From a virus: 22,194 bases of DNA. Below are positions 6,458 through 22,194 of the stretch, in pieces. The position numbers and the translations under genes are program-made. Each line of letters starts with the position of its first letter. The first letter of the stretch is position 1. The stretch is taken from positions 2,404 to 24,597 of IMG/VR virus record IMGVR_UViG_3300029309_000330; one strand, 5' to 3'. The notes beneath the pieces are model-generated. The model was not told the DNA's origin, ran no database searches, and was given only the letters and a program-made list of their open reading frames with translations.

Positions 6458-6621
6458 TAATTTAGAAAGAAGTTCTGTGCTTCTACCTCCTGTTTTAATT
6501 CTTCTTGAAACGTGGTGTTTAATTTTTCTACAATTGCATCAAGATCTCTGACCTGTGCTTCTGCCGTTGGCAGATCATATTCCTCACTCGGTCTTGTTAA
6601 TACCTGTACTATCTTTGCCAT
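6457..6621 (-). CDS. 54-aa small phage protein
   Basis: Read by hand: it begins MAKIVQVLTRPSEEYDLPTA and continues with a charged, probably helical C-terminal half (VRDLDAIVEKLNTTFQEEL). It stops at 6457-6459, where the TAA overlaps the ATG of the next gene. At its own start (6621) it overlaps the TAA of the nozzle gene as TAATG. Both ends are therefore fixed by overlaps, which strongly supports a real gene. The heptad-like C-terminus could oligomerise. The function is unknown; its place between the nozzle gene and a small beta protein suggests a tail-assembly or accessory role. Confidence 0.7.
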   Translation of the reverse strand: MAKIVQVLTRPSEEYDLPTAEAQVRDLDAIVEKLNTTFQEELKQEVEAQNFFLN

Positions 6622-8804
6622 TATCTACGTCCGTCCGGTTGTATGTCTAATCTAAAAGTGCCTAATCTCCAATCCTGATTGGTAGAGGTATTTTCTACCT
6701 TTAGAGATACTGCCCTACCTCTTGCTCTTGTGTCAACCTTCTTCGTGCTGGATGTTATATCAAAGGGTCCAAGAGAGGAGCTTGCTCTTGCATCATTTGG
6801 AAAATCTCTTAGATTTAAAGTGACCCTTGTTGCTCCTGTCTGTGATATGAAATCTGGTATAAATCTCCTGACCTTCATTATAAACTCACCGTCTCCTCTA
6901 AGATCTGCAGAGCCTGTTGTTTGACCTAGTGCACTTCTTCTTTGACTAATATCAAAATCTCCAGAAGATATGTTTGCGAGTATCGCGGTTGTTGTTCCAC
7001 CCTGAACCTGATCTGTTCCTGTCTCATGTTGATAATAAATTGTTCTACCCTCTGTGTTGCCCACGACATCAAAAGAAGAATCGTTACCTGCGGTATATTC
7101 TGTTGCATGTGGGCTACCGAACACGGCAGAATCCTGCCACATTGTTCTAGCTAATGTGCCCACTGTCCATACTGGCCTTTGTGGTGAAGAGTCAAAATAG
7201 TTATATGCAACCATTCTGTTTACAACAGAGGATGAGGAAGTTGGATAGAACCACATGACCTCACCAAAAAGATTGTTTAGTCCGGCAGATATCATTTGAT
7301 TGCCGGATTCTAGATTTATATCATTGTATACAAAATCCTCTACCAGACACGGTAGTGATTCTAATTTACCAGCATATCTAAAGAAACCATTTTCAGATAA
7401 CCAATATGCAGAACCATCAACCTCGACACATGCGTTCTGTCCTGTAAGTCCACAGTTTGTACCTACCTGTGAGAAAGCAAATGTAAAAGGTTGACCAACA
7501 AAACGCATGGTAAATAGAGCTGTGTCAGTCCAAACAAGAATCGAATCTCTACCACGAATTGCTCCTCTGATCTGTGATCCGTCGGCTAATCTCTGTGTGC
7601 CGGCTGTATTGGTTGCTGTTGGTGTATATGTATTTATATCCTCCTGATCAGAGAATCTTATAAACATATCATCTTGTGTTGACGTATCACCAATCGTTGT
7701 TTCTGTTCCAAAGAATACCAAGTGACGATCCGGTGTAGATACCAACATGTGTCTTGATGCTGTGGGTGCACCAGATATAATACTTGCTCTGATATTCTCT
7801 GCTCCTGCTGCTGCAGAGTTCCATTCAAATACAGCACTATCATGTATCAGGCAGATTGCCTTATCACCAAAATTATCTAGTGACCACATACCAGGTTCTA
7901 ATACCAAATCACCCGATGCTGCCTCACCCCATGCCACAAAATTTGTCGTGCTGGTTACTGTATCTCCAGCCCCGTGAGATGCAGCGGTCGTCCCTCTGAC
8001 CTCTCTCGTGACACCTGTCAATTCATTCGAGGTGCTTATACCTGTATAAGATATTTCCTCTGTTCCTATCTTTATAAAGTTTGTGCCTGAATCTGGGAAC
8101 TGTGATACGTCTGTTAATATAATACCACTTGTGACCGAAGCGTTTATCGCAGCGGATAGAGTTGTTGTTGGCTCACCTGCAACCTCACCTCCCCATGTTC
8201 CAAGAGACCAACCAAAACCTTTTGCCTGCACCGCTGGTCCTACAGGATAATAGTGTTGCACTCTGATACCACCCGATGTTGTTGCACCAGATCCTGATTC
8301 TGCTGATGGCATTGTGATCGTGATTGTTGTTGCATTAGGGACTGTTGTCACCATAAATTTTTTATCGTCAAAATCTGTTGCTGCAAAATTAGAATTGGTT
8401 ATTGATGAAAAGCTGTCTAATAAAATTATGTCCTGTTCACCTATACCGTGATCTCCACTAAAAGTTATTGTAACAGATGTTGATCCGTTGGTCGTGGTAA
8501 ATGCACTTGTGAGCGTTGTCGTCGTTTTGATGGGATGTATGTCGTAGTATACACCACCAGAGAATGCATATAGAATTCTATTTGTACCTATGATTGCATA
8601 CTTTCTAGCTTTACTATTTACAAAATGATGTAGTCCTCTGCCTGCTCCTGTAAGAGCGTCATCACCTAGCTGTTTCCAACCACCTATCTTTTCTGGAATA
8701 CCGTAACGGAATCTGACATTATCACAGTCTGTCCACTGACCCTCTGCCCCAGTATCTGTAATCTGTTTGTTTATACCTGGTTGAAAACCTATCTTTTGTA
8801 ACAT
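6621..8804 (-). CDS. Tail nozzle/hub protein (P22 gp10 'stabilisation' class)
   Basis: This 727-residue protein opens with MLQKIGFQPGINKQ, followed by 'DCDNVRFRYGIPEKIGGW' (residues 27-43). That N-terminus is typical of phage packaged-DNA stabilisation/tail nozzle proteins (Pfam Phage_stabilise type, P22 gp10). These cap the portal-adaptor ring and form a beta-propeller-like tail tube end. Two inserted beta domains are visible: about 93-180 (Thr/Ser-rich, 'VTITFSGDHGIG...IILLD') and about 212-290 ('FIKIGTEEISYTGI...LTGVTREVRGTTAASHGAG'). The latter motif recurs in many marine phage virion proteins. The C-terminus returns to the family core and ends LDIQPDGRR. GAGG lies just upstream of the ATG. 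The gene follows the oxygenase pair by 16 bases. The family assignment is from memory of sequence style. Confidence 0.82.
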   Translation of the reverse strand: MLQKIGFQPGINKQITDTGAEGQWTDCDNVRFRYGIPEKIGGWKQLGDDALTGAGRGLHHFVNSKARKYAIIGTNRILYAFSGGVYYDIHPIKTTTTLTSAFTTTNGSTSVTITFSGDHGIGEQDIILLDSFSSITNSNFAATDFDDKKFMVTTVPNATTITITMPSAESGSGATTSGGIRVQHYYPVGPAVQAKGFGWSLGTWGGEVAGEPTTTLSAAINASVTSGIILTDVSQFPDSGTNFIKIGTEEISYTGISTSNELTGVTREVRGTTAASHGAGDTVTSTTNFVAWGEAASGDLVLEPGMWSLDNFGDKAICLIHDSAVFEWNSAAAGAENIRASIISGAPTASRHMLVSTPDRHLVFFGTETTIGDTSTQDDMFIRFSDQEDINTYTPTATNTAGTQRLADGSQIRGAIRGRDSILVWTDTALFTMRFVGQPFTFAFSQVGTNCGLTGQNACVEVDGSAYWLSENGFFRYAGKLESLPCLVEDFVYNDINLESGNQMISAGLNNLFGEVMWFYPTSSSSVVNRMVAYNYFDSSPQRPVWTVGTLARTMWQDSAVFGSPHATEYTAGNDSSFDVVGNTEGRTIYYQHETGTDQVQGGTTTAILANISSGDFDISQRRSALGQTTGSADLRGDGEFIMKVRRFIPDFISQTGATRVTLNLRDFPNDARASSSLGPFDITSSTKKVDTRARGRAVSLKVENTSTNQDWRLGTFRLDIQPDGRR

Positions 8805-8820
8805 ATGACCTCATTATATA

Positions 8821-9387
8821 TTAAAAGGCCCAGCTTACAAAGGAGTAACGGGTGCCTTTTGTAGTCTCTCTAACCTCATGTGGATACATAAAGTTAGATG
8901 GAAATAACAGTATATCACCTGTTTTTAGCTTAATTTCCTCTCCTCTGCAATAGAATTCAGAGCCCTCATAGTCCTCATTTAGGTTAGCCACGATGGATAC
9001 CAGAGGCACTCCTTTCATCTGACCATCAAATATACTGTGTATATGATCGTAATGTTCCCTCATCATCGTGCCCACCTGATACCTGTTAAAACGTATGGGA
9101 CTAAATTTATGTAACCACGGTGCTTGAGTCTTCTCTCCTGGTGTGCTGTTCTTTTCCTGATATTTACTTAATGCCTCCACGAGATAAGGCGTTATCTTTG
9201 CCTGTTGCTCCTTGGTGCAATTCATAACATCTAATTCTTTTGTGGGTTCTGATTCAAAAGTCCCCGTAGCATAGTTATTCCAAGTGTGTTTTTTCCAAAT
9301 GCCCTTATTACATTCATCTATTAATGTCTCACATACCTCTTTTGGTATGGTATTTACCACCATTATGTAGTCTTTAATTGTGCTCAT
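8821..9387 (-). CDS. 2OG-Fe(II) oxygenase, prolyl-4-hydroxylase-like
   Basis: A 188-residue enzyme with the signature of Fe(II)/2-oxoglutarate dioxygenases. His112 and Asp114 in 'REHYDHIH' form the HxD facial-triad start, His170 in 'MYPHEV' is the distal metal ligand, and Arg180 in 'GTRYSFVSW' is the likely 2-oxoglutarate anchor. 'GSEFYCRGEEIKLKTGDILL' between them is the typical double-stranded beta-helix core. The family couples 2-oxoglutarate decarboxylation to hydroxylation of a protein, nucleic acid or small-molecule substrate; here the substrate is unknown. All catalytic residues are present, so the enzyme should be active. The start at 9387 has GGAGG seven bases upstream and overlaps the upstream oxygenase gene by 14 bases. 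Relatives are common in cyanophages and other marine phages near structural genes. Confidence 0.88.
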   Translation of the reverse strand: MSTIKDYIMVVNTIPKEVCETLIDECNKGIWKKHTWNNYATGTFESEPTKELDVMNCTKEQQAKITPYLVEALSKYQEKNSTPGEKTQAPWLHKFSPIRFNRYQVGTMMREHYDHIHSIFDGQMKGVPLVSIVANLNEDYEGSEFYCRGEEIKLKTGDILLFPSNFMYPHEVRETTKGTRYSFVSWAF

Positions 9388-10000
9388 TCATTAACCTCCT
9401 TATGTCCAAATGAGTTAGTGATTGTTCTGATCCGATAGCGTCAATACAAAATGTATTGAATGATACACTTATTCTATCTTCTTCACTTTGATTAATTGGC
9501 ACGCTATGTTTCAACGAAGATGGAAATAATATTAATTCACCTGGTTTACAAGGTAATAAAAAAGATTCTGAGTTTACATGGTTATATTTTATAGGGTCTA
9601 ATTTCATACCATCTTGATTTGTTTTTGAAAACTGTATGGGCGGTAATTTCTCATTTATTTGAAAATACATAACACCGGATATGATACTGTTCGGATGCAC
9701 GTGTTCGTGATGCTTGGACCCTTTTGGGTTTCTGTTAGCCCAACATTGAGTGATTACTAATCTTTGTTCTGAGTTTAAAACGTTCTTGGTAAATTTATCT
9801 ACAGCCTCACCCAAAAAGTTTTTTATGTTTTTTAATTCTTCTTTACGTAACAGGTACGAATCATCAGATCTATAATTACCGTTTTGTTGTTGCTCACGAT
9901 AACTAATAGTTTTTAAATATGCTAGCTCTTTATCAATAGGCTCCTCGTAAGGAACAATTAATAAAGGTGTCGGAAATAATTCTAGTAATTCTTCTTTCAT
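9374..10000 (-). CDS. Putative 2OG-Fe(II) oxygenase, TIGR02466-like
   Basis: A second oxygenase of a different subfamily, with the pattern 'CWANRNPKGSKHHEHVHPNS' followed by 'IISGVMYF'. The likely metal-binding region is His98-His102 with the H-x-H-P element, the distal His is His165 in 'SSLKHSVP', and Arg176 in 'DRISVSFN' is the 2-oxoglutarate anchor. The block 'PGELILFPSSLKH' is a hallmark of this family. I choose the ATG at 10000 (208 residues), which overlaps the sulfotransferase stop as TAATG, over an in-frame TTG nine bases upstream. No Shine-Dalgarno is seen, so coupling is probable. Its substrate is unknown. Encoding two distinct oxygenases in tandem suggests they act on different positions of one target or on different targets. 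Confidence 0.8.
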   Translation of the reverse strand: MKEELLELFPTPLLIVPYEEPIDKELAYLKTISYREQQQNGNYRSDDSYLLRKEELKNIKNFLGEAVDKFTKNVLNSEQRLVITQCWANRNPKGSKHHEHVHPNSIISGVMYFQINEKLPPIQFSKTNQDGMKLDPIKYNHVNSESFLLPCKPGELILFPSSLKHSVPINQSEEDRISVSFNTFCIDAIGSEQSLTHLDIRRLMNEHN

Positions 10001-10788
10001 TATACCCAAAAGTTACATTGTTTATATTCGTCTATAATATTTTTTGGTACGATATCATAAGCGTTATAGTCTTCTTTATAATTTTTTATAGCACCTTCTT
10101 TCAAAATATGCAATCCATTTCCTACAATGGCGTCATCGTAAACCATATCGTTTACTTTAAATTGTTTTATATCATCAAAATCATGTTTTACCTTGGGTAT
10201 ATTTAAAAAGTTATACACATTATTTATTATATTTTCTGTGTCTTTAACCAAGTCTTTAAAATTAATTACGTGATACAATTCTTTAGGTTGATAATCCAAC
10301 AAATGCTTTATACCTATTAACTCTTTGACTATTACACCTTCTTTGTTCATTAGCATATGACATTTTTCTTCTCTTGTTTTAGCTTCATATTGATTAACAA
10401 AAGAAGAAGGTTCTCTTTCAGACCAGTTTAAAAAAGATCCTAATACCTCTATTATGTCTCTAACTAAAACAATAATTTTTATATTAGATTTTATTTTTTT
10501 TAAATTTTTTAAATTTGTTGGATGTCCCCAAGGTGCTCTATCAATAATATATTTGTAATTCCAATCTTTGTAGTAATTGTTAAAAATATTTTTTGTTACA
10601 TTTTCTAAAGAACTATGATCTGGAAAATTTTTAAAGATATCTGTGTTTTGTAATAAATATATTTCACCAAGTATATCAGCACAAATACTATTGGCTGTAA
10701 CAGCTATATCTTTGTTTTGATTCATAATAGAACTAAATACGGTATTGCCAGCACGAGGTAATCCGTGTAGGAAAAATATGTCTTTCAT
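10000..10788 (-). CDS. Sulfotransferase family protein
   Basis: A 262-residue protein with the 5'-phosphosulfate loop 'GLPRAGNT' at residues 9-16 right after a hydrophobic strand (DIFFLH). The 3'-phosphate motif is at Arg110 and Ser118 in 'IIVLVRDIIEVLGSF'; the R-to-S spacing of eight matches the classical family. Such enzymes transfer sulfate from PAPS to hydroxyls or amines on carbohydrates, proteins or small molecules. The gene is noticeably more AT-rich than its neighbours (34 G+C in the 120 bases 10021-10140, against 31 in the 60 bases 8161-8220 of the nozzle gene) and rich in Lys, Asn and Ile codons, consistent with separate acquisition. No Shine-Dalgarno is obvious. A 5-base inverted repeat (10790-10794 with 10802-10806) sits in the 20-base gap before it. 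The acceptor is unknown. Confidence 0.82.
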   Translation of the reverse strand: MKDIFFLHGLPRAGNTVFSSIMNQNKDIAVTANSICADILGEIYLLQNTDIFKNFPDHSSLENVTKNIFNNYYKDWNYKYIIDRAPWGHPTNLKNLKKIKSNIKIIVLVRDIIEVLGSFLNWSEREPSSFVNQYEAKTREEKCHMLMNKEGVIVKELIGIKHLLDYQPKELYHVINFKDLVKDTENIINNVYNFLNIPKVKHDFDDIKQFKVNDMVYDDAIVGNGLHILKEGAIKNYKEDYNAYDIVPKNIIDEYKQCNFWV

Positions 10789-10808: not shown

Positions 10809-12680
10809 TTACGAACTTTGTAAACCACCATGTGAGTCAGAAGTTGCTCCACCTTGACCTTTTTTATCGAATAAATCTCCAAAATCTATTGCGTTACCTG
10901 TGCTAGCAATAGTAACATAATCTATTGTTCCGTTATAACTTGGTTCATAACCACCCATCCATATAGCTCTTGTTGAGTTTGAAGTAGAAGGCACTCCTGC
11001 TCTAGCGACTGTTAGATCACCAAAATCTGTAGCGTTACCTGTCGAAGCTATTGTAAAATAATCAATAGTATTTACTGTAGAAGGTGTTTGACCTCCTCCA
11101 TACAGAGCTCTTGTTGAAGAAGAAGATGCTCCACCATATGAAGGTGTTCCACTTAAATCACCAAAATCTGTAGCATTACCTGTAGAACCAATTGTAATAT
11201 AATCTACTGTATTTACATAAGTTCCTCCTGGTGCTAAATATCCACCTAAAAACAATCCTCTTGTTATGTTTCCTGTTCCTACGACTCTTCTAGCTTGTGT
11301 TAAATTACCAAAGTCAGATGCATTACCTACGGTTGCAATTGTATTATATCCAATAGTATCTACAACAGTAGACCCATTAGAATCACCACCTCCGTATACA
11401 ATTCTAGTTGTTGAAGCTGTAGAACCAGGATCTCTACGACCAGTTTGTAAATTACCAAAATCAGCAGCATTTCCTTGAGACTGCATTTCAACATAATCGA
11501 TAACATCAGAATATCCAGGAGCATTACCACCAGCAGATATTGCTCTTGTAAGACTTCCACTTGAAGCATTGTTGTTTCTAGAATCTGTTAAATCTCCAAA
11601 GTCGGAAGAATTACCTAAAGTTGTAATAACTGTTAAATCCATACTTGCAGTTATTCCACTTCCATTTTCTCCACCCATCATCAAAGCTCTCCCTGATCCA
11701 GGCATATAGGTTACTGATGGACGTTGAGTTTCACCGAGTTCTAAACCACCATGACCACTTGATGAAGTTGCTTGAGTATTATTTCTAGCTGATGTTAAAT
11801 CACCAAAATCAATGGAATTACCAGTGCTTGTTAAACTCCAATATTGAATAGTATTTATTAAAGTTGAATCATTACCTGGATCAGAACCACCCATAGCTAT
11901 ACCTCTAACAGAATTATCGGTACAACCATGATAATTAGTTCCTGTTACCAAGTCTCCATAATCAATTGCATTACCTAAAGATGCAAACTGAACTGATTCA
12001 AATAAAGAAGCTGGTTGACCACCTGCAAAAACACATTTTGTTGCACTAGCTGAAGCTTGAACACCTAAAGCTGTTGCAGTTAAATCTCCAAAATCTGTAG
12101 CATTACCTGTTGAAGATATTTCTACAAAATCAATTACGTTACTATTTGGACTTGATCCAGATGCCATTAAAGATCTTGTTGGATTAGCAGCAGCTCCTAC
12201 AGAATTTCTTGATTCTGTTCTATCTCCAAAATCTGTAGCATTACCAAGTGAGGCTATGGTTATAAAATCTATTGTATTAATATTACCAGAAACAAAACCT
12301 CCACCAAATAAACCTCTAATATTATTACCAGATCCTGAACAAGCTCTTCTTGTTACTGTTGAATCACCAAAATCAGCCATGTTGCCTTGAGAATTAAAAT
12401 GAATGTATTGTATTACATTTGTATTTCCTGATCCTGTATAACCATTAGACATTATTCCTTTAATGGATGAAGATGCTCCTCCGCCAGTTCCTAGAGTAGC
12501 TGTTAAATCTCCAAAATCTGTTGAATTACCAGTTGTAGATATTTGAACAGTATCTATTGTATTAACCACTGAAGGAGTAGTACCACCACAACAAATTGCA
12601 GTGTCTCCTCTTGACCAAGCATTATTTCTTTGCTGTTTATATGCTTCTCGTACATCCCAAATTTTTCCTGAATTAGACAT
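10809..12680 (-). CDS. Propeller-repeat protein D: two six-repeat modules
   Basis: A 623-residue repeat protein. The start is the ATG at 12680, which overlaps the previous TAA and has GGAGG (12690-12694) nine bases upstream; a longer frame to 12719 lacks a start signal. The N-terminal ~26 residues hold a short anchor motif 'KIWDVREAYKQ'. Module 1 (about 27-313) and module 2 (about 331-621) each have six ~47-residue repeats of the form TRxIFxGG...TIDYITIASTGNATDFGDL. Each module ends in SGHGGL or DSHGGL. A 17-residue linker with 'QRP' joins them. The regular Gly-Gly turn and the strand-rich repeat suggest six-bladed beta-propellers resembling kelch or galactose-oxidase folds. It is probably a tail fibre or receptor-binding protein. 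It is the last propeller gene before the enzyme cassette. Confidence 0.78.
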   Translation of the reverse strand: MSNSGKIWDVREAYKQQRNNAWSRGDTAICCGGTTPSVVNTIDTVQISTTGNSTDFGDLTATLGTGGGASSSIKGIMSNGYTGSGNTNVIQYIHFNSQGNMADFGDSTVTRRACSGSGNNIRGLFGGGFVSGNINTIDFITIASLGNATDFGDRTESRNSVGAAANPTRSLMASGSSPNSNVIDFVEISSTGNATDFGDLTATALGVQASASATKCVFAGGQPASLFESVQFASLGNAIDYGDLVTGTNYHGCTDNSVRGIAMGGSDPGNDSTLINTIQYWSLTSTGNSIDFGDLTSARNNTQATSSSGHGGLELGETQRPSVTYMPGSGRALMMGGENGSGITASMDLTVITTLGNSSDFGDLTDSRNNNASSGSLTRAISAGGNAPGYSDVIDYVEMQSQGNAADFGNLQTGRRDPGSTASTTRIVYGGGDSNGSTVVDTIGYNTIATVGNASDFGNLTQARRVVGTGNITRGLFLGGYLAPGGTYVNTVDYITIGSTGNATDFGDLSGTPSYGGASSSSTRALYGGGQTPSTVNTIDYFTIASTGNATDFGDLTVARAGVPSTSNSTRAIWMGGYEPSYNGTIDYVTIASTGNAIDFGDLFDKKGQGGATSDSHGGLQSS

Positions 12681-13948
12681 TATTGTAAACCTCCATGTGA
12701 TCCTGATGAGCCAAAACAACCGCCTCTAGTGACAGTTAAATCTCCAAAATTTGTAGCATTACCTGTTGATGCAATTGTAATATATTGAATAGTGTTATTA
12801 CTTTCTGGAGAAGTACCACCAGTAAATATACCTCTAACTGAATTAGAAGAAGTTCCAGGGTTAGTGTATGCACTTAATAAATCTCCAAAATCTGTAGCGT
12901 TACCCGTTGAAGCAATTGTTACATAATCCATAGTATTAAGAGCTGGAGAAGGTCCTCTACCCGCACCATATACTGCTCTTGTTGAAGATGAAAGACCAGC
13001 TAAATATCTTCGTTCTACAGTTTGATCTCCAAAGTCTGTTGAGTTACCAGTCGATGCAAGTGTTACATAATCCATAACATTTGTATTTCCACTAGGTCCT
13101 CTTCCTCCAGAAAAAATAGCTCTTGTAGAACTAGCTGCACCACCACTTGATCTTAAACCATCACTAATATATCTGTCTCCAAAATCAACAGCATTACCCA
13201 TACTTGATATGGTTACAAAATCTATAATATTTTGTGAACCACCTGGAGATACATATCCAGGGCCAAAAATAACTCTAGTTTTATTAGACATTGATCCAGC
13301 ATTTAGTTGTGTTCTTCCTTGTGTTAAATCACCAAAATCAGCAGCATTACCTTTTGTTGCAAATTGAAAATAATCAATTACAGCAGATTTATCTGTAACA
13401 GGATTAGCATCACCTCCAGCTTGAATTCCTCTAGTTGTAGAAGAACCACCCACACAATCTCCTCTTGCTTGTGATAGATCACCAAAATCAGATGCATCAC
13501 CTGTTGTTGAAATTTGTATATAATCTATTGTATTATTAGCAGATGGAGCAAAACCTCCTGCAAATGCTGCTCTATCCGTGTGCCCTGATCCACTGCCTCC
13601 TGGTATGTCTATGTTGGCGCCCATCGCACTATGTTGAGTACAATAATAATACAATATGGTTGGTGTAGAACTTGTTACCTCTATCTCCGTATAAGCTCCT
13701 GCATTTCCAGGTGTTCCTGCTACGGTCACACCGGTAGAATAAGCGCTGCCTCCGCCGTGAGTTCCATTATCGGTTTCTGAAAAACGAAAAGGGTGACCAT
13801 CATTACTACTATCAGCCTGATCAAATCTAAAAGTGCCACCAGGAAATAAAGTTACATATTGTTGTTGATTACCATCGATAACATATTTGTTACCCGAACC
13901 GGTGCTTACCACCGTGACCTTATAAGTGAATGAAGTTGCTCTAGCCAC
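12680..13948 (-). CDS. Cupredoxin-like domain fused to one six-repeat propeller (protein C)
   Basis: A 422-residue protein in two parts. Residues 1-~115 form a cupredoxin-like beta domain with 'TFRFDQADSSNDGHPFRFS' and 'YYYCTQHSAMG'. His52, Cys103, His106 and Met109 match a type 1 copper ligand set, with the C-x2-H-x2-M spacing of amicyanin. A Gly/Ser linker follows, then one six-repeat module (about 123-420) ending SGSHGGLQ. It is the only one of the four propeller proteins with a single module and without the Trp anchor motif at its N-terminus. The start is GTG at 13948, supported by GGAGGG (13956-13961) seven bases upstream; it overlaps the previous gene by eight bases. It is probably a virion surface protein. 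Copper binding is inferred from residues only. Confidence 0.8.
   Translation of the reverse strand: MARATSFTYKVTVVSTGSGNKYVIDGNQQQYVTLFPGGTFRFDQADSSNDGHPFRFSETDNGTHGGGSAYSTGVTVAGTPGNAGAYTEIEVTSSTPTILYYYCTQHSAMGANIDIPGGSGSGHTDRAAFAGGFAPSANNTIDYIQISTTGDASDFGDLSQARGDCVGGSSTTRGIQAGGDANPVTDKSAVIDYFQFATKGNAADFGDLTQGRTQLNAGSMSNKTRVIFGPGYVSPGGSQNIIDFVTISSMGNAVDFGDRYISDGLRSSGGAASSTRAIFSGGRGPSGNTNVMDYVTLASTGNSTDFGDQTVERRYLAGLSSSTRAVYGAGRGPSPALNTMDYVTIASTGNATDFGDLLSAYTNPGTSSNSVRGIFTGGTSPESNNTIQYITIASTGNATNFGDLTVTRGGCFGSSGSHGGLQ
12690..12694 (-). promoter_or_regulatory. Shine-Dalgarno GGAGG inside HGGL codons, sets start of protein D
   Basis: The codons CAT GGA GGT TTA (His-Gly-Gly-Leu) at the end of protein C supply GGAGG nine bases before the ATG at 12680. 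This decides the start of protein D at 12680 rather than the longer frame. Confidence 0.6.
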
Positions 13949-15836
13949 TGATTAACCCTCCATGTCCGTTTGATTGAGATCCACCACTTTGTGAAGTAGG
14001 ACTTATTAAATCTCCAAAATCAGAAGCATTACCTGTTGATCCAATAGTTATAAAATCCATTATATTACTAGCACTTGGCGTAAGTCCACCATTAAAAACT
14101 CCCGTGACAGAATTAGTTCCACCTCTTTTCATAGTGCTCCTTGCAGAAGTTAAATCTCCAAAATCTGTAGCATTACCAGTAGTGGCTGTTGTAATATATT
14201 CTATAGTGTTTACTACCGATGACCCATCTGATCCTCCTCCAAACACAGCTCTTGTTGAAGAATTAACACTTCCTGCTTGAGATCTGTTTCCAGATAAATC
14301 TCCAAAATCTGTTGCATCACCTGTTGTTGATATTGTAAAATACTCTATTACATCAATTCTTGATGGAGTATAACCTCCTCCTATGATAGCCCTAGTATTA
14401 TTTTCTATTCCTGCGCCACCTGCTTTGCTAGCGCTTAAATTTCCAAAATCTGCTGCGTTACCTAAAGTTGATATACTTATGTAATCAACGACATTAACAG
14501 TTTCTCCTCCCATAAATAATCCTCTAGTATTATTACTAGCACCAGCGACTTGTTGAACTGAATTTGTTCTATCACCAAAATCTGCTGAGTTTCCTTTTGT
14601 GGCAAAAGTATAATATTGAATAACATTTGTATTGGATGGGTTATAGCCTCCTCCTTGTACAGCTCTTGTTTTATTACCAAGAGATCCTGCAGTTAAAGCC
14701 TTATTTGTTGTATCTCCAAAATCTTGTTCATTTCCTGAACTAGATATTTTAAAAGATCCAACATACGTATCATTTCCATTATCCCTATCACCACCCATAT
14801 TTATACAAAGATCCCCACCAGCTTCGTTAAATGGTAATGGTCTTGTTCCTTGATACCCGTCGTTTAGTCCGCCGTGCGAGTTTGATGTTCCCCCTACAGC
14901 TGTTCTTGAATATGTTAAATCTCCAAAATCTGAAAAAGTCCCTCCATTTGCAATAGTTACATTTTGAATTACATTTTGTACTGTTGGAGTTGAACCACCA
15001 CAATTAAAACCTTTTACACTATTTGATACCCCTGCACTATCTCTCATTGCAGTTTCTAAATCTGCATAATCTATTGCATTACCTTGAGAGGCTATTGTTA
15101 TAAAATCTACAGTCCCAACAATACTAGGAGTAAAACCACCAAGAGTTATTCCTCTTGTTGATGAACTAACATTAGAATTTGCAGGTCTTCTTGATTGTGA
15201 TAAATCTCCAAAATCTGTAGCATTACCAGTTGTTGCAATCTCTATAAAATCTATTGTGTTTACTATTGATGGAGCGGCTCCTCCACCAAAACAACCTCGT
15301 GTTGGGGAACCCATACCTGAGGATTGTCTTCTTGCTTGTGTTAAATCACCAAAGTCAGTTGCATTACCAGTTGAAGCTAAAGTTATGTATTGAATAATAT
15401 TACTTGGAGAACCTTGCCCTCCTGCTTGTACACCTCTTATAGAATTACTAACTGGTGCTGTTAAATCAAGTGAAGCTGTCATGTCTCCAAAATCAGCGGC
15501 GTTTCCTTCTGTAGAAAAAGTTACATAATCAATAACATTAGTAGCAGCACCTGGACTTTGATAGCCACCTCCAAAAACAGCTCTTGTAAAAGAACTCATT
15601 CCACCTGGCGAAAATCTATCTGTAGATAAATCTCCAAAATTAGATGCATTTCCAGAAGAACTCATGTTTATAAAATCTATTATTGAAACGTAATTAGTTC
15701 CTCCGTTTGGAGTGTTTCCACCAGCAAGTAAACCTCTTGAATTTGCATTCGGCCAATACCCACCCATTACCGCGTCATAGACTTCACGCAGATTCCAAAC
15801 GCCTGAAGCGTTATCAAGTTGCGGGTAGTTAGCCAT
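13941..15836 (-). CDS. Propeller-repeat protein B: two six-repeat modules
   Basis: A 631-residue repeat protein beginning MANYPQLDNASGVWNLREVYD. The 'GVWNLREVYD' segment (residues 12-21) matches the short Trp-containing N-terminal motif of the other two-module propeller proteins and probably attaches the fibre to the virion. Module 1 (35-324) has six repeats and closes with NSHGGL. A 17-residue linker (with 'GTRPLPFN') leads to module 2 (342-~628), also six repeats, closing with NGHGGL. Repeats are 44-51 residues; the most conserved part is 'GNATDFGDL', followed by a variable loop and then 'TRGxFxGG'. The loops vary strongly between repeats, as expected of a ligand-binding surface. It starts four bases after the stop of the 96-residue gene. 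A receptor-binding role is inferred. Confidence 0.78.
   Translation of the reverse strand: MANYPQLDNASGVWNLREVYDAVMGGYWPNANSRGLLAGGNTPNGGTNYVSIIDFINMSSSGNASNFGDLSTDRFSPGGMSSFTRAVFGGGYQSPGAATNVIDYVTFSTEGNAADFGDMTASLDLTAPVSNSIRGVQAGGQGSPSNIIQYITLASTGNATDFGDLTQARRQSSGMGSPTRGCFGGGAAPSIVNTIDFIEIATTGNATDFGDLSQSRRPANSNVSSSTRGITLGGFTPSIVGTVDFITIASQGNAIDYADLETAMRDSAGVSNSVKGFNCGGSTPTVQNVIQNVTIANGGTFSDFGDLTYSRTAVGGTSNSHGGLNDGYQGTRPLPFNEAGGDLCINMGGDRDNGNDTYVGSFKISSSGNEQDFGDTTNKALTAGSLGNKTRAVQGGGYNPSNTNVIQYYTFATKGNSADFGDRTNSVQQVAGASNNTRGLFMGGETVNVVDYISISTLGNAADFGNLSASKAGGAGIENNTRAIIGGGYTPSRIDVIEYFTISTTGDATDFGDLSGNRSQAGSVNSSTRAVFGGGSDGSSVVNTIEYITTATTGNATDFGDLTSARSTMKRGGTNSVTGVFNGGLTPSASNIMDFITIGSTGNASDFGDLISPTSQSGGSQSNGHGGLISG
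13956..13961 (-). promoter_or_regulatory. Shine-Dalgarno GGAGGG inside HGGL codons, sets GTG start of protein C
   Basis: The codons CAT GGA GGG TTA at the end of protein B give GGAGGG seven bases before the GTG at 13948. This is the reason for accepting a GTG start that overlaps the upstream gene by eight bases. Confidence 0.65.
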
Positions 15837-17024: not shown

Positions 17025-18935
17025 TTATGAAAGTCCACCGTGTCCGTTAGCAAACCCTGCTAGATTATTTCTGCCAGTAGATAAATCTCCATAGTCAGTA
17101 GCATTACCAGTTGAAGCTATGGTTACTTTTTCAATAGTTTCTCTTGGAGATGCTCTTCCTGCAAAAATACCTCTTGTATTATTACTAACACCGCATCCAA
17201 TAGAATCTACTGGTGGAGTAGATGCAGGATCTCCAAAATCTGTTGCATTACCTGTTGAGGCAATAGTTATATAATCGATAACAGAAGATGCTCCTGGTTG
17301 ATTACCACAATAAAACACACCTCTTACAGAAGATGAACAACCACTTAAATATCTTCTCGCTTCAGTTAAATCTCCAAAATCTGTCGCATTACCTGTTGAT
17401 GCGATTGTAACATATTGTATTATGTTTGTGTTAGCTGGAGCAGTTTGACCTCCTCCAGAAATCCCTCTAGTTGAACTAGCTAATCCTGCATTATCACTTA
17501 TCACACTAGTAGCATCTCCAAAATCTGTAGCATCACCTATGGTAGCTATAGTTATATAATCAATTGTATTTACTACACTAGGACTGTGTCCTCCTATCAT
17601 AACTGCTCTCGTTTGATTAGAAGCTCCTGTTCCTCTTCTTCTAGCAACTGTTAAATCTCCAAAGTCAGCATTGTTGCCTTTAGTTGATATTGTCACATAC
17701 GATATTGAGTTTATATTAGTTGGACTAACATACCCACCTGCAAAAATACCTCTAGTATCACTAGCGGCAGCAGCGGCAGAATTAAATGCAGCTGAAGCTG
17801 TTATATCTCCAAAATCTACAGAATTACCATCAGCTGATATAGTTATAAAATCAATTACATTACTATTTCCTGGATTTACTCCTCCACCAAATACTCCAAT
17901 GTCTCCCACACCTAAACCTCTTGGTACAACTTTACCTGTTGGTGAATAAAGTTCCGGGGCTCTTTGATTAAATGTTTGTAGACCACCATGACCATTTGAA
18001 GTTGCGTGTGCAGCCGTTCTTGCAACAGTTAAATCTCCAAAGTCTGTCGCATTAGCGGCAGACGCTATTATTTTTTGTTCAATAACATTACTAACACTTC
18101 CTTTTGCAAATAATCCTAATATGCTATTTGAAGTTCCTCTTCCATTTTCAGTTGTTCCAGAAAGTGAATCACCGTAATCAACAGCATTTCCTAAACTTCC
18201 AAATTGAATTGTTTCTATTTTTTCTCTTGTAGAACTATCTTGTCCACCAGCCATAACCATTCTAGTTTGACTTCCAAAACTTGATTGGCTTCTTTGAGCA
18301 GCACCCAAGTTTCCAAAATCTACTCCATTACCTGTTGTGGCAAGTTCAAAAAAATCTATTGTATCTACATTAGATGGAGTATTTCCTCCTGCTTTTATTC
18401 CTCTTGTTGGATTAGCCGTACAAGTAGGTAAAGCAGTTGCAGCTTGTGTATCTCCAAAATCTGTTGCATTACCTAAAGTAGCGATGTTAACTGAATCAAC
18501 TGTATTAACACGAGAAGGTGTTAATCCATCAACACTTAAACATCTAATGTTGTTACTCATCCCTGCTAGATAACTTCTAGCGGCTGTTAAATTTCCAAAA
18601 TCTGCAAAATTACCTGTAGATGCAAAATGAACATAATCTATTATATCTGTATTTGGGTGACCACCACAAGAAAGTCCTCTAACAAAACTTCCTCCCCCTG
18701 CATTTAAATCTCTTGCAACAGATAAATCTCCAAAATCAATTGCATTACCTGCCGTGCTAGTTTGAAAATAATCTACTACAGTTGATGAACTTGGGGCTCC
18801 ACCACCCATCCATATAGCTCTAACGGCTCCTGTGTTAGAATTAGGATAAGTTCCATCACCTTTTATATTTTTAGTAATATCATTGATTTTCCAAAGCCCT
18901 CTTGCTTGGTCTCGTCTAGGATAACTGTCCGACAT
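17025..18935 (-). CDS. Propeller-repeat protein A: two six-repeat modules
   Basis: A 636-residue protein, first of the propeller series in transcription order. It begins MSDSYPRRDQARGLWKINDI; the Trp15 region matches the N-terminal anchor of proteins B and D. Module 1 (residues 38-319) contains six repeats and ends SNGHGGL. A 26-residue linker with 'QRAPELYSPTG' follows, and module 2 (346-635) contains six more and ends ANGHGGLS. Typical repeats contain 'VNTIDYITIATIGDATDFGD'. A few repeats are degenerate (for example the sixth, with 'ASAANATDFGDL'), as in old internal duplications. AGGAGG lies 8 bases upstream of the ATG. The strict 6+6 count and closing motif suggest two closed six-bladed propellers side by side. 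A function as fibre or adhesin is inferred from location between tail genes. Confidence 0.78.
   Translation of the reverse strand: MSDSYPRRDQARGLWKINDITKNIKGDGTYPNSNTGAVRAIWMGGGAPSSSTVVDYFQTSTAGNAIDFGDLSVARDLNAGGGSFVRGLSCGGHPNTDIIDYVHFASTGNFADFGNLTAARSYLAGMSNNIRCLSVDGLTPSRVNTVDSVNIATLGNATDFGDTQAATALPTCTANPTRGIKAGGNTPSNVDTIDFFELATTGNGVDFGNLGAAQRSQSSFGSQTRMVMAGGQDSSTREKIETIQFGSLGNAVDYGDSLSGTTENGRGTSNSILGLFAKGSVSNVIEQKIIASAANATDFGDLTVARTAAHATSNGHGGLQTFNQRAPELYSPTGKVVPRGLGVGDIGVFGGGVNPGNSNVIDFITISADGNSVDFGDITASAAFNSAAAAASDTRGIFAGGYVSPTNINSISYVTISTKGNNADFGDLTVARRRGTGASNQTRAVMIGGHSPSVVNTIDYITIATIGDATDFGDATSVISDNAGLASSTRGISGGGQTAPANTNIIQYVTIASTGNATDFGDLTEARRYLSGCSSSVRGVFYCGNQPGASSVIDYITIASTGNATDFGDPASTPPVDSIGCGVSNNTRGIFAGRASPRETIEKVTIASTGNATDYGDLSTGRNNLAGFANGHGGLS
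17031..18824 (-). repeat. Array of twelve ~140-base coding repeats (protein A)
   Basis: Twelve repeats of the same type as at 10809-15734, in two blocks of six: about 17979-18824 and 17031-17900. They are separated from the second array by the coiled-coil and 96-residue genes. Confidence 0.85.
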
Positions 18936-19329: not shown

Positions 19330-20157
19330 TTATCCGAAAACTATCGCCGCTGCAATAGCTTTTCCCATTGATATACCGCTTGAAGGCGTTGTAAAACTTA
19401 ATGTTCCAGAACCGTCGGTCTGAAGCACTTGACCACTACTACCATCTGCTGCGGGAAATGTCAAAGCATCAATAGTTACTGTTCCTGAACCTTTTGGCTG
19501 TATAGATACACCAATATTAGTGTCTCCACCAGATGCAGTAAAAGATGGTTTGTTCCCTGTAGCTGCGTTCGCATATGTCAATTGATTAACTGCAGAACTT
19601 GTGGCTGTTAATAAAAATAATTCATTGCCATTTGTATCTAAAATAGATGTTCCTATTTTAGGTGATGTTAATGTTTTGTTTGTTAAAGTCTGTGTGCCAG
19701 TCTCGGTTACTGTGCCTGCTGTGGCTAATGATATTTCTACTATATCAGGATTAGTTGAGTCGTTAGCTTTTGCAACAACTAATTTATCTCCTTTATCTGT
19801 GGCAGAAAAAGTTACAGAACTTCCTGATCCAGAGGCATATTTAAACTGAACTGTGTAAGAACCAGAGCTAGAGTTTCTTAAAAAATAAAAATTTTGTGTA
19901 TCTAAAGGGATTGTAACAACTGCGTTACCAGATAAGGATCCAGTAAATTCTATTGTTCTGTGAGACATCACAGCACCAGTCGACCCATCTGAAACAGATA
20001 ATGTTACTGTTCCACCACTAGTCAATGCCTGTTGTGTAAATCCACCGGCTATCTGTTCTATGATTTCTAAATTGGTATTGGTCTTCGTACCCCAAGTTCC
20101 GGCGTTTTCTCCGGTTGCTTGATATTCTACACCTAAAGGTGAATATGTTGATGCCAT
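19330..20157 (-). CDS. Tail-fibre-like protein, 275 aa
   Basis: It opens MASTYSPLGVEYQATGENAG and then 'TWGTKTNTNLEIIEQIAGG', a start that recurs in marine phage fibre proteins. The middle is Ser/Thr/Gly-rich beta sequence (residues 45-130) with 'QNFYFLRNSSSGSYTVQF'. 'TQTLTNKTLTSPKIGT' near 155-170 is the 'LTNKTLTSP' element common in phage fibres. It continues with 'VSIQPKGSGTVTID' and ends 'MGKAIAAAIVFG'. These are consistent with a trimeric beta-structured fibre or collar protein. AGGAG is about eight bases upstream of the ATG. The 'SGGDTNIGVSIQPKGSG' segment resembles hypervariable fibre tips only in composition. Attachment or adhesion function is inferred from family style and the neighbouring repeat proteins. 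Confidence 0.75.
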   Translation of the reverse strand: MASTYSPLGVEYQATGENAGTWGTKTNTNLEIIEQIAGGFTQQALTSGGTVTLSVSDGSTGAVMSHRTIEFTGSLSGNAVVTIPLDTQNFYFLRNSSSGSYTVQFKYASGSGSSVTFSATDKGDKLVVAKANDSTNPDIVEISLATAGTVTETGTQTLTNKTLTSPKIGTSILDTNGNELFLLTATSSAVNQLTYANAATGNKPSFTASGGDTNIGVSIQPKGSGTVTIDALTFPAADGSSGQVLQTDGSGTLSFTTPSSGISMGKAIAAAIVFG

Positions 20158-20167
20158 AATTTATCTC

Positions 20168-21109
20168 CTATGCAGCGTCACTATAACTTGTATTTGATCC
20201 ACTTGCAACATCCGAATATGTATCATTCGAACCTGTCGAAACATTACTATATGATGTATTTGAACCAGTGTCAACATCGCCATATGCGAAGATATCAACT
20301 GTTCCAATACTAGAGGTGATAGACTGACCAGTTAATCCAACCTGCATATCAGCAACTGTAACTGATCCAACACTAGCACTAAATGATACTCCGGTTAATC
20401 CTATGGTTAAATCATTAGGATCTAAAGCTCCAACACTAGCTGTAGCAGATTGACCTGTTGGTTGTGCTACTGCACCACCTAATCCAATAAGAGAACCTTC
20501 TTGTGCCTCCATTGATAAACCACTTACTATAGCAGTTGCATTTGGTATTGTAAGAGAACCTAAAGATGAAGTTACTAACTGTCCAGATAATGTAACTTCT
20601 TGTTCTGATATTCCTGTAGCCGTTCCTTGCGCTGATGTTATAGAAAGCCCTGAAGGCTGAACAGTTTCGTTTGGTGCAAATGCGGTCCCTTGTGAAACAG
20701 TAACTGATAATCCTGTTAGACCAATTGTTAGATCATTAACACCAGGAGCGCCTATTGCTGAAGTTATAGATTGACCTGTTAATCCAACTGACATCTCTGT
20801 TGGTGAAATAGAACCAACAGAAAAAGTTGCTGACACTCCATCAAATCCAACACCTATATCTGGTAAACTTATCGAACCAACAGATGCGGTTGTGGATTGT
20901 CCTGTTAGTGTAAGATTAACATCATCAACTGTTACAGATCCAACACTAGCTGATATTGATAAACCAGATGGTTGAGCAACAGCGTCTGATAATTGACCCC
21001 ATTCGTCCTCACCCCAAGACTTTGCACCCCAACCTGTTTTTAAAGTTACAGCACTATTCCAATTAGCCTGTCCCCAGGTTAACCGGCCCCATCCTGAAGT
21101 CACCGACAT
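20168..21109 (-). CDS. GWG-motif protein with eleven 21-residue repeats
   Basis: A 313-residue protein with three parts. Residues 1-40 hold a GWG/WG pattern (GWGRLTWGQANW, GWGAKSWGEDEWG). Residues 45-277 are eleven tandem repeats of 21 (twice 22) residues with the core (L/P)(T/S)G(Q/L)SITxSxG. Residues 279-311 are three copies of an 11-residue unit, for example 'VSTGSNDTYSD', with AA at the end. The even period suggests a stacked beta structure (solenoid or triple beta fibre). It contains no Cys and few charged residues. GGAGG lies about seven bases upstream of the ATG. Proteins with the same GWG start are frequent in marine phage structural operons. It is most likely a fibre or virion decoration protein; the target is unknown. 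Confidence 0.78.
   Translation of the reverse strand: MSVTSGWGRLTWGQANWNSAVTLKTGWGAKSWGEDEWGQLSDAVAQPSGLSISASVGSVTVDDVNLTLTGQSTTASVGSISLPDIGVGFDGVSATFSVGSISPTEMSVGLTGQSITSAIGAPGVNDLTIGLTGLSVTVSQGTAFAPNETVQPSGLSITSAQGTATGISEQEVTLSGQLVTSSLGSLTIPNATAIVSGLSMEAQEGSLIGLGGAVAQPTGQSATASVGALDPNDLTIGLTGVSFSASVGSVTVADMQVGLTGQSITSSIGTVDIFAYGDVDTGSNTSYSNVSTGSNDTYSDVASGSNTSYSDAA
20177..20275 (-). repeat. Three tandem 33-base coding repeats
   Basis: Three 33-base units encode an 11-residue motif of the form V(D/S/A)(T/S)GSN(T/D)(S/T)YS(N/D) at the very C-terminus of the GWG protein. Their period differs from that of the 63-base repeats next to them. Confidence 0.8.
20279..20977 (-). repeat. Eleven tandem 63-base coding repeats
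   Basis: Eleven units of 63 bases (two of 66) encode the 21-residue repeats of the GWG protein. Similarity is clear at protein level (glycines at fixed positions: TGxS and SxG) and weaker in DNA. Confidence 0.8.
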
Positions 21110-21119
21110 GGTTGACCTC

Positions 21120-21572
21120 CTATGCTAATCTGATTATCGCGTTACTTGCGTCTGCTGCTGGAAATTCTATTTTAAAAGTTCCGTTACTTGCTGTCTTATC
21201 ACCACCAAAAGCTATAATTGCTACAGCATCAGTTGTTCCTGAACCACCATCTGTTGTAGTATTATAAATCATTGCTCCGTTTGCGGTGAAAGATGCAGAA
21301 GAATAAGTTACATCTGCAAAATCAACAAAAGCTGTTGTTGATGAAAGAGAAACACCATTGTTTGTAAGTGTGGCTCCACCTGCAGAGTATGCAGAGCCTG
21401 ATGTATTTGATATCTCGTTTGACGTAGAGTAATCAGTTGTGGCTGCACCTAGTGAAGCAGAACTTGTAAAGAGAGCTATCTTAAAAGTGTGTCCACCTGA
21501 AGATTCAAAACTGTGTTTACCCTGTAAAAGTTCTTGTTTAAAACTTGAACATATTGCCGATGATATTGCCAT
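21120..21572 (-). CDS. Conserved phage structural protein, 150 aa
   Basis: It begins MAISSAICSSFKQELLQGKH, then 'HTFKIALFTSSASLGAATTD' and 'EISNTSGSAYSAGGATLTN', and ends 'FPAADASNAIIRLA'. This combination (SFKQELL, TFKIALF, FVDFADV, FPAADASNAIIRL) is one of the most recurrent small structural proteins that I know from marine phage contigs. It usually sits just after the head-tail adaptor, as here. The predicted fold is all-beta, with Ser/Thr/Ala-rich loops. AGGAG lies nine bases upstream of the ATG at 21572, eleven bases after the adaptor stop. Its exact role (decoration, tail ring or fibre base) is not established to my knowledge. Confidence 0.78.
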   Translation of the reverse strand: MAISSAICSSFKQELLQGKHSFESSGGHTFKIALFTSSASLGAATTDYSTSNEISNTSGSAYSAGGATLTNNGVSLSSTTAFVDFADVTYSSASFTANGAMIYNTTTDGGSGTTDAVAIIAFGGDKTASNGTFKIEFPAADASNAIIRLA

Positions 21573-21583
21573 AATCTATTCTC

Positions 21584-22194
21584 CTACGGGTTTGCTGAGG
21601 TTACTGGTATACGAACAGCGCCATCAGTGTAGTCATCTCTTCGTCTTCTACCAACTTGCTCGTTAGCAAACTTCTGTACCTCTTGTTTATATTTATTTTC
21701 ATACAAAGTCAACATGTCTATCGGACCTTTTAAAAAGCCATAAGCCTCTGATAGACAGCAGTATAATAGTCCATTTGGAAAATTAAGACTGATATAATTA
21801 GTATCATTATCTTCTAAAAGATCAGGCATTTTGTTAAAATGAACTCTAAATCTATAAGTTGTGTTTGGTGTAGGAGCTACAAATATTCTTCCTGAATTAG
21901 TATCCGCCTCACCTGTAGCACCACCAAACATCGCATAATATTTAGGTTGACCTTGAGCCGCTGAAGTTCCTGTAACATCTTGATACTCTTGAAGATATGT
22001 TACATCTTTCTTTTCTAGCCATCTGTTAGCTCCTGTAATAGCTGATCCGTTTGTATCGTAAACCTGTATACCTCTTATAAATACAGCTCCTGCAGGACAG
22101 TTAATAGACTCCTGGCCAGCAACAAAATTACCTAATTGTTGTTTCCTGTCTGCATCGATGGGCACATCTCTGAATATTCTGTACTGTGCATTTA
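21584..22194 (-). CDS. Head-tail adaptor (tail tubular A/gp4-like), 5' end cut by window
   Basis: The open frame runs past the right edge. The nine codons before the GTG at 22165 read in frame as NAQYRIFRD, continuing naturally into VPIDADRKQQLGNF, so 22165 is not the true start and the N-terminus is missing. The family style ('YRIFRDVPID', 'NRWLEKKDVTYLQEYQD', 'IFVAPTPNTTYRFRVHFNKM', then 'NFPNGLLYCCLSEAYGFLKG') is that of phage adaptor or tail-tubular-A proteins. These form a ring below the portal and connect head to nozzle. The C-terminal part is basic (VGRRRRDDYTDG). With the nozzle gene at 6621-8804 it forms the short-tail core. The visible part is 203 residues, close to the usual size, so only a small N-terminal piece should be missing. 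Confidence 0.8.
   Translation of the reverse strand, partial: NAQYRIFRDVPIDADRKQQLGNFVAGQESINCPAGAVFIRGIQVYDTNGSAITGANRWLEKKDVTYLQEYQDVTGTSAAQGQPKYYAMFGGATGEADTNSGRIFVAPTPNTTYRFRVHFNKMPDLLEDNDTNYISLNFPNGLLYCCLSEAYGFLKGPIDMLTLYENKYKQEVQKFANEQVGRRRRDDYTDGAVRIPVTSANP

Follow-up and report, generated by a model that had tools for sequence, protein, structure and literature searches.

A repeat protein with regularly spaced aromatic residues at both ends, encoded next to a probable fibre gene of a marine virus, as a possible docking component of the phage tail

The analyzed stretch of DNA (hereafter, the window) has a length of 22,194 nt and corresponds to bases 2404–24597 of a marine virus record of 24,597 bases. 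A gene on its minus strand encodes a protein built largely of repeats (hereafter, the repeat protein). The features of this gene and of the genes considered together with it are as follows:

20168–21109, minus strand: gene of the repeat protein, ATG start, 313 aa, with an aromatic head, a body of 21–22-residue repeats and an 11-residue aromatic tail (from the open reading frame list and relatives)
20972–21109, minus strand: head with two aromatic triads, residues 1–46
21056–21097, minus strand: first aromatic triad, W7/W12/W17, residues 5–18
20993–21037, minus strand: second aromatic triad, W27/W32/W37, residues 25–39
20273–20971, minus strand: body of eleven 21/22-residue units, residues 47–279
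20273–20290, minus strand: FAYGDV, the first aromatic-x-x-V motif of the 11-residue series, residues 274–279
20240–20272, minus strand: 11-residue unit 1 of the tail, DTGSNTSYSNV
20207–20239, minus strand: 11-residue unit 2 of the tail, STGSNDTYSDV
20174–20206, minus strand: 11-residue unit 3 of the tail, ASGSNTSYSDA
21120–21572, minus strand: phrog_644 family gene directly upstream of the repeat gene (E 3.1e-23), a family of unknown function
21584–22165, minus strand: head-to-tail adaptor of the SU10_adaptor family (PF24175, E 2.2e-15), with the frame open to the window end
19330–20157, minus strand: phrog_31104 family gene directly downstream of the repeat gene (E 3e-46)
6621–8804, minus strand: nozzle-type protein (phrog_3287, "virion structural protein", E 4e-100; PDB 9nwi, E 5.4e-14)

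The body consists of nine units of 21 residues and two of 22, which mostly have the form T-G-x-S-x-T-x-S-x-G at unit positions 2 to 11, and the tail consists of three units (residues 280–312). Residue identity at lag 21 was 0.29 for residues 45–279, compared with a shuffle maximum of 0.205 (lags 5–59; 0 of 2000 shuffles were as high), and the lag-11 identity of 0.625 for residues 279–313 was reached in none of 5000 shuffles. The eleven 21-residue repeats followed by three 11-residue repeats that the original prediction had read from the sequence are thus confirmed, with periods far above those of shuffles and with the correction that two of the eleven units have 22 residues. The "GWG-rich head" placed before them also exists; it is more precisely described as two triads, W7/W12/W17 and W27/W32/W37, 20 residues apart, which contain all six Trp of the protein at a spacing of exactly 5. 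An additional periodicity in the body (20273–20971), at lag 107, i.e., five units (identity 0.23), hints at a possible trace of an old block duplication.

At the DNA level, neighbouring 63-nt body units show 38–57% identity in ungapped comparison, and the 33-nt tail units show 61% (units 1 and 2), 52% (units 2 and 3) and 70% (units 1 and 3). The Tandem Repeats Finder program with a score of 40 reported no array at this gene. The suggestion that the 33-base repeats are alike enough for slippage is therefore supported weakly, best for units 1 and 3, and slippage cannot readily be extended to the 21-residue block, whose DNA units are too diverged for it to occur easily.

The four Tyr residues of the protein (Y276, Y287, Y298 and Y309) have a spacing of exactly 11, and the only remaining aromatic residues are F89, F96, F144, F243 and F274. 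Since Y276 opens the Tyr series, the 11-residue rhythm starts within unit 11, the last body unit; its FAYGDV motif aligns with VWGxI of distant relatives. Among the 20 window genes scanned for the strict triad pattern [WYF][GAS]x3[WYF][GAS]x3[WYF], the only matches were two in the repeat protein and one in the phrog_644 protein (0.03 expected from shuffles for the latter).

Relatives were collected by a scan of IMG/VR proteins with the repeat protein (340 confirmed stretches) and by a second scan with the head only (467 confirmed stretches, overlapping the former set). The best 80 of each were taken, and 104 unique complete proteins of the window type were read from them. Some contigs were sampled twice as separate loci, so that the locus counts given below are not all independent; protein counts refer to unique sequences. 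The HTVC027P type is represented by 50 unique complete proteins (from the best 80 of 225 stretches), 49 of which have 318–323 residues, whereas that of L235 has 384 and is longer than the others by 61–66 residues, or approximately three units. A third, very variable type was reached via the phage DSL-LC04 (best 80 of 115 confirmed stretches). A wide set was also formed, of 91 unique ORFs that each had to show three or more body units and two or more tail motifs; this filter fixes the minimum counts in the set and excludes bodies of other kinds.

In 101 of the 104 window-type proteins (best 80 of 340 and best 80 of 467 stretches), residues 1–46 contain two triads. Aromatic residues spaced 5 and 5 in the first 70 residues were found in 104/104 window-type, 50/50 HTVC027P-type and 78/91 wide-set proteins, all from best-scoring stretches or the filtered set; when this N-terminal stretch of the window-type proteins was shuffled, such a triad arose in 915 of 20,800 cases. 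The strict pattern was present within the first 60 residues in 78/104 window-type and 19/31 DSL-type proteins.

The number of 11-residue units in the window-type proteins (best 80 of 340 and of 467) was three in 101 of 104, five in two and one in one, and every change comprised two units, or 66 bases (3/104). A single event may account for both five-unit sequences. The single-unit protein, that of L103 (288 aa), has the fewest units seen among the 104 close relatives. In 67 unique three-unit tails, DNA identity averaged 0.71 between units 1 and 3, compared with 0.57 for both units 1 and 2 and units 2 and 3; because units 1 and 3 are more alike than neighbours, the 22-residue pair is the natural duplication unit of the tail.

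As for the body, no unit was absent in any of 98 segmented window-type proteins (those of the 104 with exactly one FAYGD), with unit lengths of 17–25, although this constancy is partly due to the selection of the best 80 of 340 and 467 stretches. The comparison of copy number among close relatives thus bears out the expected variation for the 11-mers (3/104, by two units), but not for the 21-mers (constant in 98/98). When units of relatives with less than 75% identity were compared one by one, the best match was at the same position in 887 cases, at another position in 54 and tied in 53. Unit 2 of nine relatives (L003, L006–L011, L015 and L017) showed an identity of 0.90 to unit 10 of L147 or L063 and of 0.48 to the unit at the same position. 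Judging from such matches, body units may change position while their count stays at eleven.

Mean identity along the protein, estimated for 27 sequences, was 0.83 in the first head block, 0.68 in the second, 0.69 in body units 1–10, 0.81 in unit 11 and 0.91 in the tail. The second head block is conserved no better than the body. The C-terminal 34 residues are the most conserved of the five regions, not variable as a receptor-binding tip would be.

In the wide set, the spacing of body units was 22 in 413 of 575 cases, 17 in 74 and 21 in none, and the arrays reached about 21 units. Two, three, four or six tail aromatic motifs were found in 23, 38, 23 and 7 proteins, respectively. The body counter used for this set undercounts, giving fewer than 11 units for 83 of the 104 window-type proteins, and the tail counter gives one unit for four of them. 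The wide-set tail unit resembles DDSQTPNWTEI and aligns with the tail of the repeat protein, with W in place of Y. When the C-terminal 140 residues of the window type were compared by profile with those of the DSL-LC04 wide family, the probability was 92.4 (E 5.3e-7) over 137 columns, the tail included. Copy number thus differs in distant relatives, so that constancy in all relatives combined with predicted disorder, named in advance as the outcome that would speak against the prediction, is not what was found. A parity rule, by which the tail alters only by two units, fits the three changed window-type proteins and was rejected, as it fails in the wide set, where three motifs are commonest.

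Because the body period of the wide set is mostly 22, twice the 11 of the tail, the period change is best described as halving. In the repeat protein itself the 2:1 ratio is inexact, most body units having 21 residues. The change in period, originally taken as a sign of a shaft of one geometry and a distinct tip or anchor, looks rather like such a halving when the repeat spacings are compared.

The C-terminal block was also sought regardless of the body, using a DNA-level pattern that encodes D-[S-like]-Q-T-P-N-W-T-E; 57 viral contigs matched, some of them already among the DSL-LC04-led set and so not all independent. The peptide is located at most 56 residues from a stop codon in 57/57 and starts 12 residues before it in 45/57. 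A different body precedes the same tail in six of the 57 (L359, L363 and L400; L367, L369 and L380), which form two groups of near relatives. These six bodies are built of Ala/Thr/Glu/Asp-rich repeats (of the ETATAxDxT or ESAVxDD type) and follow the same kind of aromatic head. Two further contigs, L374 and L405, have only 15 and 22 residues of open frame and no readable body. By this distribution of sequences, the C-terminal 11-residue block forms an independent module, as originally proposed: it occurs on other bodies (6/57) and alters in copy number in close relatives (3/104).

Database searches gave no assignment for the repeat protein. It had no Pfam match at E 0.1, curlin repeats included, and no PHROG match; two of ten relatives weakly matched PHROGs without known function (E 0.0013 and 0.0061). 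No known fibre family was matched in Pfam or PHROGs. A sequence search of the PDB with the repeat protein and relatives found nothing convincing (two rows at E 0.55 and 0.56). The TBLASTN search of named phages with the last 46 residues of the DSL-LC04 homologue found only that homologue itself. Literature searches by title led to the SU10 paper discussed below; among the titles listed, none was on these repeats, which does not prove that no such work exists. The AlphaFold2 model of the whole repeat protein with 26 relatives had a mean pLDDT of 45.7, with strands over the body, about two per unit, and neither end structured. A second model, covering only the last 140 residues and built with 64 further rows, 52 of which were distant, had a mean pLDDT of 39.5 and almost no structure.

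Taken by sequence and gene order, the repeat protein belongs to a large, widespread and so far unnamed phage family, defined here by a triad head, a 21–22-residue body and an 11-residue aromatic tail. The repeat protein has a 5,5 triad near the N-terminus, TG-x7-G body repeats, a phrog_644 gene upstream and an aromatic-x-x-V/I motif every 11 residues; the last feature is lacking in the HTVC027P and CRP-345 types. HTVC027P gp68-type proteins have no 11-residue tail, their last two aromatic motifs being 15 residues apart, and CRP-345 gp55 ends without such motifs. Both types occupy the same gene place as the repeat protein.

This place is well defined. Among loci with a flank, which are not all independent, a phrog_644-like gene was the nearest upstream match in 145/146 window-type, 53/53 HTVC027P-type, 20/21 CRP-345-type and 55/72 DSL-type loci, nine of these 55 with a gap. 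A phrog_31104-like gene was located downstream in 127/127 window-type, 68/68 HTVC027P-type and 48/62 DSL-type loci (31 with a gap) and in none of 20 CRP-345-type loci. No repeat gene follows phrog_644 in HTVC023P or 023Pt_psg01. The product of the downstream gene of the window (19330–20157) is matched by CRP-901 gp50 (E 1.1e-12), which is annotated as a putative tail fiber (PMC10149686). Because of this match, the gene is referred to here as a probable fibre gene; PHROGs itself gives no function for it.

Another CRP-901 protein, gp53 (L162:2889–3875), encoded upstream of an adaptor-like gene, showed a weak PHMMER match to the CRP-345 repeat protein (E 9.8e-6). Further genes are located on the minus strand of the window. 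Two 2OG-Fe(II) oxygenases and a sulfotransferase (8821–10788) lie between propeller-like genes and the nozzle-type gene, and an oxygenase near the nozzle-type gene is also found in HTVC023P and HTVC027P. Four proteins with repeats of about 47 residues and a GNATDFGDLT-like core, six to 12 cores per protein by a loose pattern, are encoded at 10809–12719, 12680–13948, 13941–15836 and 17025–18935. None of the four had a Pfam match above the curated cut-off, and the product of 17025–18935 matches phrog_19111, for which PHROGs gives no function. These four proteins probably fold as beta-propellers and may be receptor-binding proteins maintained as tandem paralogues.

Among named phages, the phrog_644 gene of the window is closest to that of HTVC023P (58% identity), and the nozzle-type gene is closest to those of 023Pt_psg01, HTVC027P, DSL-LC04 and HTVC023P. 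Since both genes are nearest to those of these phages, this similarity indicates that the host of the virus is probably a SAR11 bacterium.

The only named record that matched the repeat protein at E 1e-3 was WJZ48131.1 of DSL-LC04 (OR003939.1, 59268–60398), annotated as hypothetical. The gene order there is like that of the window: an adaptor, a small extra gene, a phrog_644 homologue, the repeat gene, a fibre-like gene and a small putative lectin gene. WJZ48131.1 resembles the repeat protein in its GWG triads, TG-x7-G repeats, four C-terminal W-x-x-V/I motifs eleven residues apart and AA end; it differs in its low identity (29%), its length of 376 aa, its larger number of triads, some of them within the body, and its tail Trp in place of Tyr. 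Pelagibacter phage HTVC027P gp68 (QGZ17849.1) likewise has a phrog_644 homologue on one side of its gene and a fibre-like gene on the other, and shows the same kind of head and repeats of approximately 21 residues, but its triads are interspersed among the repeats, its tail has no 11-residue units and its length is 321 aa.

Similarly spaced triads were found in nozzle-type proteins, i.e., members of phrog_3287, which we take to be nozzle or P22 gp10-like proteins; the DSL-LC04 homologue of the window nozzle-type protein is annotated as a stabilization protein. The set contained 12 records hand-picked from 26 and the window's own nozzle-type protein, and the pattern was set post hoc, after the head of the repeat protein had been viewed and partly on the model of known nozzle proteins. 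In this hand-picked set, and with this post hoc pattern, nine of the 13 proteins contained the strict triad, compared with 0.75 expected from shuffles; examples are WGTDTWGSDEW of HTVC023P and WGIGTWGYSTW of DSL-LC04. Six of the nine also contain a WSLDNFG-like motif, and in five (HTVC027P, HTVC023P, MinM2, phiM5 and MJing1) the triad starts 26–33 residues before it; in the nozzle-type protein of ct7L0027 the triad is 107 residues from the WTLDNWG motif. The full triad is absent from the nozzle-type protein of the window, which has a partial one (GWSLGTWGG), and from three of the other 12. The Clew-1 protein has the partial triad WSVGSFNGVIF, and the similar chain of PDB 9nwi has WSSGSFNGVIF. 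Unlike the repeat protein, nozzle-type proteins have one triad only (that of MJing1 has a second, overlapping one), and no further resemblance was noted. The idea that triads are mutually exclusive between the nozzle-type and the repeat protein was dropped, as HTVC027P and DSL-LC04 carry both.

A possible structural counterpart is found in the nozzle protein gp17 of phage SU10. According to the description of the fibre dock in PMC9509320, a loop of one nozzle chain carries three Trp residues, W839, W847 and W857, placed with pseudo-threefold symmetry, and each of them packs on one subunit of the trimeric short tail fibre. The three residues were confirmed at those positions in gp17 of KM044272. 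The repeat protein also has three aromatic residues on one chain, at regular spacing; the spacing is 8 and 10 in the described SU10 dock, where such residues hold a trimeric fibre, and 5 and 5 (head) or 11 and 11 (tail) in the repeat protein. Moreover, gp17 is part of the nozzle and not a separate repeat protein, and no sequence homology between the two is shown.

Our tentative reading, to which we assign a probability of about 0.37, is that the repeat protein is a structural protein of the tail appendages of a short-tailed pelagiphage, with aromatic docking motifs at both ends and a spacer body between them. The two W-x4-W-x4-W triads at the N-terminus would serve as docking motifs; by analogy with the dock described for SU10, the three side chains of each triad would form, on a single chain, a quasi-threefold star gripping the ends of trimeric fibres. 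The 21/22-residue repeats would form a beta-rich spacer of set length between the docking ends, and the C-terminal 11-residue aromatic units a second docking or anchoring strip with wider spacing. We infer that the protein would be present in the virion, with a beta-structured body and a partner for each end, and that, as in the SU10 dock, the triads would bind trimeric fibres. This reading is supported by the aromatic residues polarised to both ends with exact spacings of 5 and 11, by the like-spaced triads in 9 of 13 nozzle-type proteins together with the described Trp triad of SU10, by the position between the adaptor and phrog_644 genes and the probable fibre gene, by the conserved ends (0.83 in the first head block and 0.91 in the tail) and by the recurrence of the tail on other bodies (6/57).

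Several results weaken the docking reading. Both AlphaFold2 models are of low confidence (45.7 and 39.5), and the spacing reported for SU10 (8 and 10) differs from that of the head (5 and 5), being nearer to the 11 of the tail. One aromatic residue per fibre subunit fails at the tail, which has four here and 2, 3, 4 or 6 in the wide set, and the HTVC027P gp68 and CRP-345 gp55 types lack the 11-residue tail. The strict triad is limited to 78/104 window-type and 19/31 DSL-type proteins, and the second head block is conserved no better than the body. Finally, the nozzle-type protein of the window lacks a full triad, the distance in ct7L0027 is 107, and the nozzle comparison relies on a post hoc pattern and hand-picked records, and the SU10 loop may sit elsewhere in the nozzle fold.

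The main rival, which is quite possible although also doubtful, is a homotrimeric tail fibre anchored by its GWG head, in which the 21/22-residue repeats of three chains would build a beta shaft and the 11-residue units a cap or foot. Thr/Ser/Gly/Val repeats of low complexity, for which the first weak model has roughly two strands per unit, are consistent with a fibre, as is the position of the gene beside a probable fibre gene and near an adaptor of the SU10 type; the long variable arrays (up to about 21 units) of distant relatives are consistent with a shaft. However, the second model is almost without strands, no fibre family of Pfam or PHROGs was matched, the body copy number is fixed in close relatives (98/98 segmented) and the C-terminus is the most conserved part, unlike a receptor-binding tip. 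The original prediction of a fibre shaft with a distinct tip or anchor thus holds insofar as the C-terminal block is a separate module, while the identity of 0.91 makes it unlikely that the C-terminus is a variable receptor-binding tip. Conservation itself would fit either a docking arm or a fibre with both ends anchored.

High conservation of the first head block and the tail would also be expected of a bridge between fixed partners, and the gene directly follows phrog_644 and the adaptor, as might that of another virion component, for instance a head-tail joint or a capsid decoration protein whose aromatic ends would link two parts. Such a role seems improbable: the probable fibre gene comes next in 127/127 window-type and 68/68 HTVC027P-type loci, the array length in distant relatives is too variable for a tight joint, and in HTVC023P and 023Pt_psg01 phrog_644 is not followed by a gene of this kind. 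The repeat length near 22 and the richness in Ser/Thr/Gly are also reminiscent of a curli-like amyloid subunit or another secreted protein, and PMC9599517 reports a curli secretion cassette and curli genes in HTVC023P-type pelagiphages. Nevertheless, the repeat protein had no Pfam match at E 0.1, neither CsgG nor CsgF was found among the window proteins scanned against Pfam, and the repeat gene has a regular place within the structural module, which makes this explanation very improbable.

Returning to the docking reading, the protein could in its more specific form be a separate carrier of several fibre-dock triads along a repeat arm, adding sockets for trimeric fibres, with the C-terminal units as a portable second socket; we consider this form rather unlikely. 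The protein is in any case an unusual natural example of two repeat periods, in a ratio of nearly 2:1, on one chain. Its family is abundant in IMG/VR (340 and 467 confirmed stretches, overlapping), and the searches linked it to no named function, no Pfam family and no solved structure. Should the triads act as fibre sockets, the attachment sites of trimeric fibres in uncultivated phages could be predicted from a short sequence pattern.
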